A DNA stretch of 64,000 bases from Thermoplasmatales archaeon (GTDB taxonomy: Archaea; Thermoplasmatota; Thermoplasmata; Thermoplasmatales; Thermoplasmataceae): assembly GCA_016806715.1 (NCBI GenBank), contig CP060531.1, positions 248,001 to 312,000 of the forward strand. Direction: 5' to 3'. The notes under the pieces are model-generated. The model made no database searches. It saw only the letters and a program-made list of their open reading frames with translations, and was not told the origin of the DNA. The translations under genes and the position numbers were made by a program. Numbering within the stretch: the stretch's first letter is position 1; every line of letters begins with the position of its first letter. This document shows, piece after piece, positions 14,828 to 21,950 of the stretch.

Positions 14828-15961
14828 ATGGCAAGAAGCATGTTTTCCGGCATAACGATCATGGCAGGCAGGTTATTTTATTCAATGAACTGGTATAATG
14901 TATCACCAGCACTTGGTGATATCAGCTCGACCTACCATATTCCATTTTCCCTGACCGGCCTGATCCTTGCGGTGTTTTTGCTGGGAGCAGGAGTCTTCCA
15001 GATACCTGCAGGAATAATTGCTACAAAGATAGGCAGCAGGAACACATCCGTCCTTGGCCTTGTCCTGATGTCACTTGCGGTTCTCGGGTCTGCGCTCTCA
15101 CCAACTTTTCTAATATTTGTTGTGATGCGCCTGATAACCGGCATAGGTGCGGCATTCTTCTTTTCATCAGCCATCGGCGTTCTGAGTGATATATACTATG
15201 ACAAACTGCCCGAGATGGTTGGCCTCTACAACGGCTTCTTCAGCATTGGTGCTGGTATAGGGATATTTGCGTTCATCCCTCTTATAGATATTTTTGGCTG
15301 GCAGAACAGCCTGCTCATTAGCGGCACAATTACCCTAGTGTCGGCCCTGGCTTTTTTCATCATAGTTCCCAAGGGTGAGCGTGGAGGCCAGTTTGATATT
15401 CACAAGATAAAGTCACGGATCCTTGACCGCAGGATCTGGTACATTTCGCTCGGGTTCTCGGGATTCTGGGCTCTTAATTTCACGTTGGCGGAATATTTCA
15501 AGACATTTGCAGAATCCTTTGGATTTTCCGGTATAGTGGCAGGCCTGATGGGCTCAGCCATAATGTTTCTCGGGATAGTAGGAGGTATATTGACCGGTTT
15601 CTTCAGGAGGGGCAGGCCGATTCGTACCTCCGTGGTACTCACACTCGTCCTCTCAATGTCTTTACTGCTGCTGATGTTCAACAGTGCCTACACTCTGTGG
15701 ACTGTTGTTGCACTTAACGGCGTATTTGCGGTTGTGATATTTTCCCTCCAATACACTGCTGTAATCAGGCTGGATAGCGACAGGCGCTACATTCCCCTGA
15801 ATGTCGGGCTAATGAATTCACTCCAGCTGGGGTTCGGTTCCCTCGTACCGCTTGTATTCGCATTCCTGATACCGTATGGTTATTCCATATCATGGGCATT
15901 CCTTGCACTGTTGTCCATAGTAACACTTCCGATGGTTTACATGTTCAGGATAAGAAAATGA
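14828..15961 (+). CDS. MFS transporter (377 aa)
   Basis: Twelve hydrophobic segments and the MFS pattern: YNVSPALGDISSTYHIPFSLTGLILAVFLLGAGVFQIPAG in TM1-2, GSRN (the short loop 2-3 motif), RLITGIGAAFFFS in TM4-5. Probably a proton-coupled transporter or exporter of the CynX/NarK-like groups, substrate unknown. Slightly shorter than the ~400 aa norm. It is divergent from the hypothetical gene upstream of RPA and convergent with the zinc-ribbon gene that ends 2 bases after it. Confidence 0.85.
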   Translation: MARSMFSGITIMAGRLFYSMNWYNVSPALGDISSTYHIPFSLTGLILAVFLLGAGVFQIPAGIIATKIGSRNTSVLGLVLMSLAVLGSALSPTFLIFVVMRLITGIGAAFFFSSAIGVLSDIYYDKLPEMVGLYNGFFSIGAGIGIFAFIPLIDIFGWQNSLLISGTITLVSALAFFIIVPKGERGGQFDIHKIKSRILDRRIWYISLGFSGFWALNFTLAEYFKTFAESFGFSGIVAGLMGSAIMFLGIVGGILTGFFRRGRPIRTSVVLTLVLSMSLLLLMFNSAYTLWTVVALNGVFAVVIFSLQYTAVIRLDSDRRYIPLNVGLMNSLQLGFGSLVPLVFAFLIPYGYSISWAFLALLSIVTLPMVYMFRIRK

Positions 15962-15963
15962 GT

Positions 15964-16302
15964 TCATTTTATCCAGTGTGCCTCAAGATTCTTTTTCAAC
16001 TGTTCAATTTTCTCCGGAGAAGGCTTGAGTTTTGGCTTCGTTGGGGGTTTTCTTGACTTGAATATATAACTTGGATTTGTTATGGTTACAAAACCGCACT
16101 TGAGGCACACAAGGCCGAAAGGCGTGAACCTCTGGTGCGTAATTGCATTCCTCATAACTCCGTCATACCGCTCCGGTGAAAGTGGTTCCTGCCGTGCCTT
16201 TTTGCCTGGCGACATTAATCTCAGATCTGTGACGCTCTCCCTGACATAGAGTGATTTTACATTTCGGCTCCTGCAAAGGGAACACATCTTTATTTTTTTC
16301 AA
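15964..16302 (-). CDS. Small zinc-ribbon-like protein (112 aa)
   Basis: Contains two CxxC knuckles, CSLC near residues 7-10 and CLKC near 66-69, consistent with one zinc ribbon, separated by a basic region with SPERYDGVMRNAITHQRFTPFG. The C-terminus is Lys/Pro-rich (KSRKPPTKPKLKPSPEK). Function unknown; could bind nucleic acid. Its promoter region contains two perfect 12-bp palindromes (16311-16322, 16329-16340), and it is divergent from the MFS gene at 16432. Confidence 0.7.
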   Translation of the reverse strand: MKKIKMCSLCRSRNVKSLYVRESVTDLRLMSPGKKARQEPLSPERYDGVMRNAITHQRFTPFGLVCLKCGFVTITNPSYIFKSRKPPTKPKLKPSPEKIEQLKKNLEAHWIK

Positions 16303-16310
16303 GTTTTATC

Positions 16311-16340
16311 TTAGTATACTAAATGTTTTTAGTATACTAA
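16311..16340. promoter_or_regulatory. Two copies of the palindrome TTAGTATACTAA
   Basis: Perfect 12-bp palindromes at 16311-16322 and 16329-16340, centres 18 bp apart, lying 9-38 bases upstream of the minus-strand gene (start 16302) and about 90-120 bases upstream of the MFS gene (16432). Tandem symmetric sites in a divergent promoter look like binding sites for a dimeric repressor. They may also overlap the TATA element of the minus-strand gene. Confidence 0.65.
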
Positions 16341-16431
16341 CATCTTTTGGTCGCTTTATTTTGCAAATTCGCTCCGGTCAAATAATTATTTTAATGCATA
16401 TTTTATCAGGTGAAGAGGCAGTGCCTGTTAA

Positions 16432-17697
16432 ATGAGCAGCAATAGAAAAATAATAGCACTTAGATCATTTGTGATTTCTGCAGGCGCAACTGCTGCGGCT
16501 TCTTTCGTGGGTGTCTATGGCGTGATGATTGGCGCCACGGCTGCGGAAATGGGATGGCTCCAGTCCAGTTCCAATGCCCTGACCAACGGTGGCCAGTTGC
16601 TTTGGGGGAAATTGAGCGACAAATATGGAAAGAGGCTTCCATTCCTGATCCTGGGAAGTATTATTCTAGCTGTGCTCTGGGCACTGATGGGGATGGTCAG
16701 GTCTCCGATCCAGCTTATTGTGATCTATGCTGTGCTATCGCTTATGTCTGCTATGATAACTGTAAACTGGTTTTCACTGATAGCCGAGATAGAAGATTCA
16801 GCAACTCGTGGGCATTTCCTGGCTGTAATAAACAACTTCTCTTCAATGGGTGCAATAATTTCTCTCATCCTGCTTTCCTTTCTCATGCATTCCACCACAG
16901 GAGATTTAATAATTGTTCCTTTTGGCATCGCAGCAGGATCCTACGTAGTATCTGCAATAATGCTTTCTGGCATAAGAGAAAAGAAGAGGGAAAAAGTCAG
17001 TATTGTAAGCAGGACCACGCTGAAGCAGATCAGGGAGCATAAGACATTCTTCAGTTACTTCCTGGCAATGAATGTTCAGGGATTCTTCTGGTCCATGGCA
17101 TGGCCAGTTTTTCCCATAACAATAGTACTTGTTATGCACTTTGACCTGTCAACAGTTGCGATACTAACCGCTGCTTCGCTCAGCGCAACGGTAATGATGC
17201 AGCTGATAGTTGGAAAGTACGTGGATAAAATAAGCAGGCCTCCGCTGATCTTTACAAACCGTATTCTGTTGAGCATGATACCGCTTTTTTATGCTGTATT
17301 TTCAACTTTCTATGAGTTTGTGGTACTCGAACTTTACAGTGGCATTGTTGGTGCAATTCAGAATGTTGTCATGAACTCATATGTCCTTGACATAGTACCT
17401 GATGATCACAGGGGAGAATACATATCTATACTCAATGGTTTCAACGGCATAATGTATTTTCTCGGTGCTCTTGCAGGAGGCTACCTCCTCCAGTTTTTTA
17501 TGGGGCGTTATGCACTCAGGGAAGCCCTGGCATTCACCTATTCATTTATAATAGCGGGCAGGTTCGCATCCTCATTTCTCTTCCTGAAGCTCAAGGAATC
17601 GGATAACAGGAGAGGAAACCGCGGTTTTGTATATTCGCTCCTGCTGAGGTTCAGGACACCCGGTGCTCCTTCGGGAGGGGTTGTAAAGCCAAGATAG
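16432..17697 (+). CDS. MFS transporter (421 aa)
   Basis: Twelve-TM major facilitator. Signature after TM2: GGQLLWGKLSDKYGKRLPFLILG (compare G-x3-D-R-x-G-R-R); the second half carries VGKYVDKISRPPLI. TM4-5 region VINNFSSMGAIISLILLSF. The basic C-terminal tail (LRFRTPGAPSGGVVKPR) is cytoplasmic. Substrate unknown; the family includes sugar and drug exporters. The start ATG is at 16432 with no strong ribosome-binding site. Divergent promoter shared with the zinc-ribbon gene. Confidence 0.85.
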   Translation: MSSNRKIIALRSFVISAGATAAASFVGVYGVMIGATAAEMGWLQSSSNALTNGGQLLWGKLSDKYGKRLPFLILGSIILAVLWALMGMVRSPIQLIVIYAVLSLMSAMITVNWFSLIAEIEDSATRGHFLAVINNFSSMGAIISLILLSFLMHSTTGDLIIVPFGIAAGSYVVSAIMLSGIREKKREKVSIVSRTTLKQIREHKTFFSYFLAMNVQGFFWSMAWPVFPITIVLVMHFDLSTVAILTAASLSATVMMQLIVGKYVDKISRPPLIFTNRILLSMIPLFYAVFSTFYEFVVLELYSGIVGAIQNVVMNSYVLDIVPDDHRGEYISILNGFNGIMYFLGALAGGYLLQFFMGRYALREALAFTYSFIIAGRFASSFLFLKLKESDNRRGNRGFVYSLLLRFRTPGAPSGGVVKPR

Positions 17698-19413: not shown

Positions 19414-20626
19414 GATTATCGTTCGCTTAATTACTAGTCTATCTTTATATCTTCATTTACGTTATACTTGCGATATAAATGGTTTTTAAGAGAAAATATC
19501 CAAAGCCAGACCTTTCAGAAGAGGATCTGAACAAGCTCAGGAGAATCAGGTCATCGATGAAGGAGGAAAAGAGGAGAGTAACAAGGGCATCCATAATCCT
19601 CGATTATCTTGAGGATTACAGCGACGACAGGATTGCAGCAAGGAACGGCATGAACAAGAATACGGTGAAGAAATGCCTGTCAAAGCTGAGGGAATTTGGC
19701 ATGGAGGCTGCACTGAACGATCTTCCAAGACCTGGAAAGCCCAGAACGATTACAGATGATGATAAGTCATGGATCCTTAACCTTGCATGCACAAAACCAG
19801 CGGAACATGGATACCCGGACGAGCTCTGGCCCTATACCCTCTTGACCGGACACATAAGGAAGAACAGGTCATCCCTTAAGAATATAAGCAGATCCACAGT
19901 CTTCGAAATACTCAATGAGGCGGAGATAAAACCTCACAAAATCAGGTACTATGTGGAAAAGAGGGATCCTGACTTTGAGGGAAAAATGGCCACGGTACTG
20001 CACGTATACAAGGAGGTGGACATGATCAACAATGGTTTCATAATACCCGAGCTGAAGGACACAATAACCGTATCATTCGATGAGAAGCCGGGAATGCAGG
20101 CAATATCAATGACATCAGAGGAGCTCCCTCCCGTTCCCGGAAAGTATCCATCTGCCACGAGGGATTATGAGTATAAGAGGCTGGGCACCCTGTCCCTTCT
20201 GGCAGGCATAGACCTGCATTCCGGTATTGTTACGGAAACTGTGAGCAGAACACATAACAGCAATGATTTCATAGCATTCCTGAAGAAACTGGATTCGTCG
20301 TATCCCAAAGATAAGAGGATAAGGGTTATTCTGGATAATCTAAGGGTGCACACATCGGCGAAAACAAGGGAATTCCTGCTGACAGTGCCAAACAGGTTTG
20401 ACTTTGTTTTCACTCCAAAGCATGGATCATGGCTCAACATAGTGGAGACACTTTTCAGCAAACTGGCCAGGACCATGCTCCGTGAGATCAGGGTAAAAAG
20501 CATGGATGAACTGAAGGACAGGATTGATCAGTACTTCCAGGAAATTAACAAGTCTCCTGTCATCTTTAGATGGAAGTATAAAATGGATGATATCACAATA
20601 GCATAGGAATTAAGCGAACGCTAATC
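19414..20626 (+). mobile_element. IS630-family insertion sequence, 1213 bp
   Basis: Flanked by TA dinucleotides (19412-19413 and 20627-20628), the target duplication typical of IS630/Tc1-mariner elements. Terminal inverted repeats are gattatcgttcgcttaatt at the left and gattagcgttcgcttaatt (complement) at the right, 19 bp with one mismatch. It contains one transposase gene (19479-20606) and sits in the first membrane-helix region of a drug-exporter gene. Confidence 0.93.
19479..20606 (+). CDS. IS630-family transposase (375 aa)
   Basis: N-terminal helix-turn-helix domain (about 45-75, RIAARNGMNKNTVKKCLSKL) and a DDE catalytic domain: first Asp in SFDEKPGMQA (about 205), second Asp in VILDNLRVHTS (about 287), and Glu in PKHGSWLNIVETLFSKL (about 325), the last motif being diagnostic of IS630. 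The frame is intact and full length, so the element may be active. GC and codon use look like those of the surrounding genes. Confidence 0.95.
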   Translation: MVFKRKYPKPDLSEEDLNKLRRIRSSMKEEKRRVTRASIILDYLEDYSDDRIAARNGMNKNTVKKCLSKLREFGMEAALNDLPRPGKPRTITDDDKSWILNLACTKPAEHGYPDELWPYTLLTGHIRKNRSSLKNISRSTVFEILNEAEIKPHKIRYYVEKRDPDFEGKMATVLHVYKEVDMINNGFIIPELKDTITVSFDEKPGMQAISMTSEELPPVPGKYPSATRDYEYKRLGTLSLLAGIDLHSGIVTETVSRTHNSNDFIAFLKKLDSSYPKDKRIRVILDNLRVHTSAKTREFLLTVPNRFDFVFTPKHGSWLNIVETLFSKLARTMLREIRVKSMDELKDRIDQYFQEINKSPVIFRWKYKMDDITIA

Positions 20627-21950
20627 TAGTGGTGGCAAGTGTGCTTGTCAATTTCGGCAGACTCTCTGACATGTTCGGACGAGTCAGGCTTTACAACCTT
20701 GGGTTTGCCATATTCACAATCGGATCTGGATTGTGCAGCATAGCTCAGACCCCGGTTGAACTCATCGGTTTCAGGCTGGTACAGGCAACCGGGTCCGGAT
20801 TCCTCTTTTCAAATAGCGCTGCGATTATCACGGATACATTTCCCGTGGAGGAAAGAGGAATGGCTCTGGGAATAAACCAGATATCAATAGTTGTTGGATC
20901 AGTGACTGGATTGATAGCAGGAGGCTTCCTTACAACACTCCTCGGCTGGAGGTCCATATTCTGGGTAAACCTGCCCATAGGAATATTTGCAACAATCTGG
21001 GCTTACATGAAATTGAAAGAGCTGTCTTCACCTTCACACATTCATAAACTGGACATACCTGGAAATGTGACTTTTGCAGGAGGCCTTGTGTTGCTCCTCC
21101 TGGCAGTCACACTTTTCGCCATATCGGGGCTCGCTACCCTATACACGTCATTGCTGATAGCAGCTTCGGCATTGCTCTTCATACTGTTTATTTTCATCGA
21201 GAGAAAGCGCGATGACCCCATGTTCGATCTATCCCTTTTCAGGAATCATGAATTCACTGCGGGAAACGAGACAATATTTCTGAATGCGCTGGCACGAGGA
21301 TCATTCATCCTGGTGATGGTATTTTACCTTCAAGGTCCAATAATGCATCTAAATCCGCTTCAAGCAGGGATATTGCTTGTACCCTTGTCCATTTCCCTAT
21401 CCATAATGGGGCCAATCAGTGGAGTTCTTTCAGACAGGTTTGGGCCAAGGTTCTTTGTTATTACCGGACTTTTGCTTTCATCAGTTGGATTCATACTGAT
21501 GACAAGGATCGCATATGGCGTTTCCGAGTTGCAACTGCTCCTGCCTCTAGTTCTCATAGGAGCCGGTATGGGGATATTTGCCTCCCCCAACAGGGCATCA
21601 ATAATGAGTTCAGTTCCTGGTTATCGCCGTGGCTTAGCATCTGGAATTAGCACCACGCTGGTCAATGTTGGGAATACGATGAGCATTGGCCTTGCCTTCC
21701 TTTTAATGAGTGCAACTACAACAAGGAATAATCTAGACTCAATTTTTTCCGGCCTTCCATCCACCGGTGAGAGATTCTCTGCAGCCGGATTCATTTCCTC
21801 AGTTCACATTGTATTCTTTATGTCTACCGCGATGCTTTTGCTGTCGATTTTATTGTACCTTTACGGTGTGCGCAGAATATCGAAAAAAGTCTAGATCTGA
21901 TCAATGAAGTCAAGACAGCCTGGCCGTTGTATGGCAAATGATTCCTCTGC

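Follow-up and report, generated by a model that had tools for sequence, protein, structure and literature searches.

A conserved palindromic element at an orphan zinc-ribbon protein gene in one genus of Thermoplasmatales, probably an operator dedicated to that gene

The metal box of DtxR/MDR1-type regulators reads TTAGG...CCTAA. In one review, MDR1 of Archaeoglobus fulgidus is cited for interference with RNA polymerase recruitment, TrmB-type regulators are described as binding downstream of the TATA box, with repression by keeping out RNA polymerase being possible, and the TrmB operator of Pyrococcus furiosus is given as TACT-N3-AGTA, with its half-sites inverted and located in the BRE/TATA region (PMC4158304). 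A review of the Lrp family describes, for P. furiosus LrpA, a palindrome adjoining the TATA box on its downstream flank, where binding prevents RNA polymerase recruitment, and notes that Lrp sites usually form clusters and are imperfect (PMC2995911). The element analyzed here was found in a window of 64,000 nucleotides (the whole stretch of DNA studied, positions 248,001 to 312,000 of contig CP060531.1 of a Thermoplasmatales archaeon) as two exact copies of TTAGTATACTAA at 16311-16322 and 16329-16340, with centres 18 bp apart. An element of this kind is well known and ordinary; what is new is the target gene and its putative regulator. The element resembles the site of LrpA autoregulation in being an archaeal palindrome near the TATA box in the control region of one gene, but here the target is a zinc-ribbon protein gene and the sites are exact, whereas Lrp sites are described as imperfect; an Lrp-type gene was not seen among the six immediate neighbours scanned. 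With the TrmB operator it shares short TACT/AGTA half-sites arranged as an inverted repeat in the BRE/TATA region of one promoter; however, AGTA abuts TACT within each box, the element reads TACT-N10-AGTA across the spacer instead of TACT-N3-AGTA, and no sugar transporter operon follows it. It is likewise similar to the DtxR-type MDR1 site as a palindrome with TTAG/CTAA ends, but it lacks the GG/CC core of the metal box as generally known. The literature listings searched named no regulator with this site; the literal motif occurred in two papers, one listed under frog taxonomy and the other under a Borrelia phage.

The preliminary description had reported two identical perfect 12-bp palindromes with an 18-bp centre distance, and both the exactness of the copies and their positions were confirmed. 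It had also proposed a genome-wide search, in which a motif scattered at random, including inside genes, would have spoken against an operator. In this search (one contig, 1,959,588 bases), the pair proved to be the only matches to TTAGTATACTAA with at most one mismatch, compared with 11 matches for a reversed control pattern; therefore, the motif is not scattered. At up to two mismatches, the window contained five matches, the three beyond the pair having two mismatches each (mean of 1.85 in shuffled sequences). Perfect 12-bp palindromes numbered 14 in the window versus a simulated mean of 16.3, and a lone palindrome of this type is therefore ordinary. An identical 12-bp palindrome pair separated by no more than 500 bp occurred in none of 100 first-order Markov simulations, and among the 61 10-bp palindromes in the window the TTAGTATACTAA pair was the only identical two within 200 bp.

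Comparison of four genomes of the genus, namely, the studied genome (G000), G001, G002 and G003, with columns aligned from the start codon of the zinc-ribbon gene, revealed the element at an equal place and with equal spacing in all four. Invariant columns made up 24 of 30 in the pair and 13 of 97 upstream of it (column-wise Fisher p = 2e-11, relatedness ignored), and the initial codons of the gene had 36 invariant columns among 60; since G001 and G002 are close relatives, the effective comparisons are fewer than four. Between G000 and the most distant member, G003, identity was 25/30 in the pair and 27/97, which is near random, in the upstream flank. All 12 bases of the proximal palindrome were invariant in the four genomes, while GTATACTAA was the sole conserved part of the distal one, whose copy was imperfect in each of the three relatives (TTTGTATACTAA in G001, ATTGTATACTAA in G002 and TATGTATACTAA in G003). 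In the distal box, the three outermost bases differed (TTA, TTT, ATT and TAT), so the wording "two identical perfect palindromes" is true of the studied genome alone. The conserved unit is GTATACTAAAA-N3-TTTAGTATACTAAG (16310..16337, minus strand; 25 of 28 bases invariant), which consists of a 24-bp inverted repeat, GTATACTAAA-N4-TTTAGTATAC (16314-16337), and an extra conserved TAAG on the gene side. On our reading, three half-sites (TACTAA, TTAGTA and TACTAA) would be fixed and the fourth loose. The repeat with the 18-bp period, GTATACTAA-N9-GTATACTAA, was exact in four of 77 genomes of the family and in three of 389 genomes of the phylum, a set that does not list G002; all of these belonged to the same genus. 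Eight others of the 77 family genomes had the repeat at two mismatches only, and such matches mean little because the control pattern also gives them in many family genomes, though not in the four genomes of this genus. Twelve stretches with an 18-bp-period repeat in viral contigs were rejected as unrelated, their boxes being palindromic in none of the 12. The locus consequently holds a dyad-symmetric site more conserved than its surroundings, with a promoter position inferred from the distance to the start codon, and the operator-like signature that had been proposed earlier is supported by conservation in all four genomes of the genus.

The gene adjoining the element is an orphan zinc-ribbon-like protein gene (15964..16302, minus strand, 112 aa, TTG start) and is likely the regulated one. 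Its start codon is placed at the TTG at 16302, a correction made because the G003 orthologue has ATG at this position and because an internal ATG of the studied genome is not kept in the three relatives, where it is GTA or ATA and is no start codon. Counted from this TTG, the proximal palindrome (16311..16322, minus strand) occupies -20 to -9 and the distal one (16329..16340, minus strand) -38 to -27, close to where a TATA box is normally found. TATA-like 8-mers, agreeing with TTTATATA at seven or more positions, were scored in 68 upstream regions of the window and of related loci; of the 12 positions scored, 11 had the 8-mer beginning at -41..-28. This is a weak guide to the TATA position because the number of scored positions was 12, the starts were picked mechanically and one identical 40-bp stretch is shared by two regions. 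This stretch, ATTTTTTATATTTTTCTTAAGTATGTGAGGTGGGAATAGA, is located at 1000-1039 and 1938-1977, directly upstream of the ORFs 1040-1558 and 1978-2505, and its two copies are perhaps a duplicated promoter and leader. A bacterial-type scan of 15900-16500 was uninformative (one promoter-like site, 1.3 expected; no terminator-like site, 0.7 expected). The distal box presumably lies on the TATA box of the zinc-ribbon gene and the proximal box between the TATA box and the start codon. Such positions also suit a core promoter alone, with duplicated TATA-like elements and without a specific regulator, as TATA is present inside each copy and the distance of the distal copy is roughly as expected. However, recognition as a TATA box would not require both half-sites of the proximal box to be invariant, as they are. 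With a TATA box at -20 to -9, transcription would begin inside the gene, where the internal ATG of the studied genome is no start codon in the relatives. A general promoter element would moreover be expected elsewhere in the genome, whereas the motif has no further match there at up to one mismatch; this explanation is considered quite improbable.

Also decidedly unlikely is an RNA hairpin in the 5' leader of the zinc-ribbon transcript that would control translation or mRNA stability. In the studied genome, the region folds into a stem of 13 bp closed by a 4-nt loop (z = -6.6, -14.7 kcal/mol), and those of the three relatives fold too (z = -5.4, -3.9 and -4.1), but two identical palindromes always give such a fold, as would any DNA operator of this type. 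No Rfam match was obtained at the gathering score. A stem kept through compensatory changes, as in an RNA hairpin regulator, was not observed: the four sequences contained no compensatory change, the ten inner pairs never varied, and of the outer three pairs one was broken in all three relatives and the other two in one of the three each. Every break came from a change in the left arm, the right arm being invariant, and this pattern favours a sequence-specific DNA site. In addition, the start codon 8 nt past the element and the TATA-like 8-mers beginning mostly at -41..-28 suggest that the element is untranscribed.

The pair is thus read, with fairly good confidence, as the operator of the zinc-ribbon gene for a dedicated dimeric repressor, and a protein switch that serves this one gene probably docks at the element. 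A putative dimeric regulator remains the best guess. A dimeric, possibly two-dimer, DNA-binding protein would occupy the 24-bp inverted repeat together with the extra proximal half-site. Its binding over the distal and proximal boxes, of which the first overlies the presumed TATA box and the second is situated between that TATA box and the start codon, would exclude TBP/TFB and/or RNA polymerase, and the zinc-ribbon gene would be repressed as a result; repression rather than activation is suggested by position alone. Candidates for the regulator are a different protein of the winged-helix or ribbon-helix-helix type and the basic zinc-ribbon protein encoded by the gene itself. An orphan archaeal gene is hereby tied to a sharply defined putative control element of 28 bp that is conserved and offers a one-step bait for the regulator.

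On the other side of the element, at 16432..17697 of the plus strand, lies a divergent MFS transporter gene (Pfam MFS_1), which had been taken in the preliminary description as an exporter sharing the promoter and is probably not the target. The placement between the two genes holds for the studied genome, G001 and G002, that is, for the three of four genomes in which an MFS gene diverges from the same intergenic region, and this arrangement would agree with an operator of the MFS gene. Sharing of the operator is not supported: in G003, the element stays at the zinc-ribbon gene, the upstream neighbour being a co-directional alpha/beta-hydrolase gene 177 bp off. The MFS orthologue of G003 (57%) is found on a different contig, at a locus that lacks the exact motif. 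Among 30 MFS loci, the exact motif was detected in three, all with an adjacent zinc-ribbon gene, and in none of the other 27. The element belongs to the zinc-ribbon gene because it is kept in G003 and because MFS loci without this gene lack the motif. It is moreover 92-121 bp from the MFS start (-121 to -92 of the ATG), and its identification as the operator of the divergent transporter is very unlikely. A separate palindrome, AAATAATTATTT (16380..16391, plus strand), is included in a stretch common to G000-G002 in the alignment, AATAATTATTTTAA, which probably serves the MFS gene as its core promoter, a role inferred for it. Elsewhere in the window, a DDE-type transposase gene (19479-20606; Pfam DDE_3, HTH_32), flanked by inverted CGTTCGCTTAATT ends, sits inside an MFS gene, the larger remaining part of which is 20629-21894; the uninterrupted orthologues are 477 and 485 aa long (L053, L055).

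The zinc-ribbon protein was identified in four of 61 genomes of relatives, the studied genome included; its orthologues in three other genomes, all of the same genus, had identities of 71, 71 and 53%. A class-wide search detected relatives in three of 400 genomes, likewise all of this genus. In 16 genomes outside the genus, no zinc-ribbon relative was found within about 1.5 kb, as far as the sequence extended, on each side of the orthologues of the other neighbouring MFS gene (14828-15961); a frame with two CxxC motifs beside such an orthologue in locus L118 was judged spurious rather than a distant relative. The protein has 112 residues and exactly four cysteines, which form two CxxC pairs separated by 55 residues, and the members are basic (pI 10.2-10.6, net charge +13.7 to +19.5). 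Searches of Pfam and NCBIfam assigned it to no family at cut-off; weak matches to A2L_zn_ribbon (E = 0.048) and DUF5720 (E = 0.086) were each obtained in one of the four members. A PDB profile search yielded two Tet4-variant chains (whole-sequence E = 8e-6) and a proteasome subunit (E = 0.088). The former were rejected as chance matches, consisting of three copies with an i-Evalue of 27 each that cover only the C-terminal 34 residues (a helix) outside the CxxC pairs, and the latter was also taken as chance. The AlphaFold model built from four sequences was unusable (pLDDT 48). Judging from these features, the product could be a regulator or an RNA- or polymerase-associated protein.

Since the zinc-ribbon protein is, in the samples searched, an orphan of this genus, autoregulation is possible as a special case of the operator reading, with the protein binding the element and repressing its own gene; we regard it as a tentative proposition, on the doubtful side. 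The gene and the element occur together in all four genomes of the genus, and neither was found outside it in the samples searched; there is one exact pair per genome, and the protein is small and basic with its cysteines arranged solely as CxxC pairs. On the other hand, no helix-turn-helix or ribbon-helix-helix domain is recognisable in it, the low-confidence model lends no help, and a basic zinc-ribbon protein may equally be RNA-binding or an accessory of the ribosome or polymerase. More specifically, a lineage-specific protein without a helix-turn-helix that binds its own promoter through the 24-bp repeat and the half-site, and so represents a new archaeal family of autorepressors with a single target, is an unlikely outcome. 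If the zinc-ribbon protein were the regulator, archaeal transcription control would gain a new DNA-binding family; if not, the operator reading would add one more locally dedicated operator.

The number of targets was evaluated using the relaxed motif TTWGTATACWAA with at most one mismatch, which gave 12 sites in G000, two of them being the pair, against 31 for the control pattern. In G000-G003, respectively, the sites and control matches numbered 12 vs. 31, 9 vs. 14, 9 vs. 13 and 11 vs. 19, i.e., each genome had fewer relaxed sites than control matches. Ten sites of G000 and seven of G001 were examined (pair excluded, ORFs of at least 80 aa; for L079, one of the ten G000 sites, the position checked was 7 bp off the site), the sites of G002 (seven) and G003 (nine) being outside this set except for G002:C56:3140 in L106. 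Ten of the 17 lay over an ORF (6/10 in G000 and 4/7 in G001). Four sites of G000 were outside ORFs, two of which (L080 and L085) were no more than 150 bp from an ORF start, as were three of G001, two of them (L086 and L091) near an ORF start. Comparison of the ten G000 loci with the seven G001 loci by blastn gave no match at E = 1e-10 and hence no site at a shared locus. A second target, a VIT1/rubrerythrin-type gene, was considered and rejected: a site precedes it in G001 and in G002, where it is the one in L106, and is absent upstream of it in G003 and the studied genome, and this gene was the sole iron-related lead. In the search of the studied genome for a multi-target regulon, no further promoter site was found at up to one mismatch. 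With one such site in the genome, the regulator is therefore probably dedicated to the zinc-ribbon gene, and a one-gene dedicated regulator is the simplest reading. Upstream of the VIT1/rubrerythrin-type gene itself, no dyad of the form TACGA-N3-TCGTA was seen in the 170 bp preceding the G000 copy. This dyad is common to G001, G002 and G003 (L105, L106 and L108), where it is situated about 90-115 bp before the start codon and is possibly another operator.
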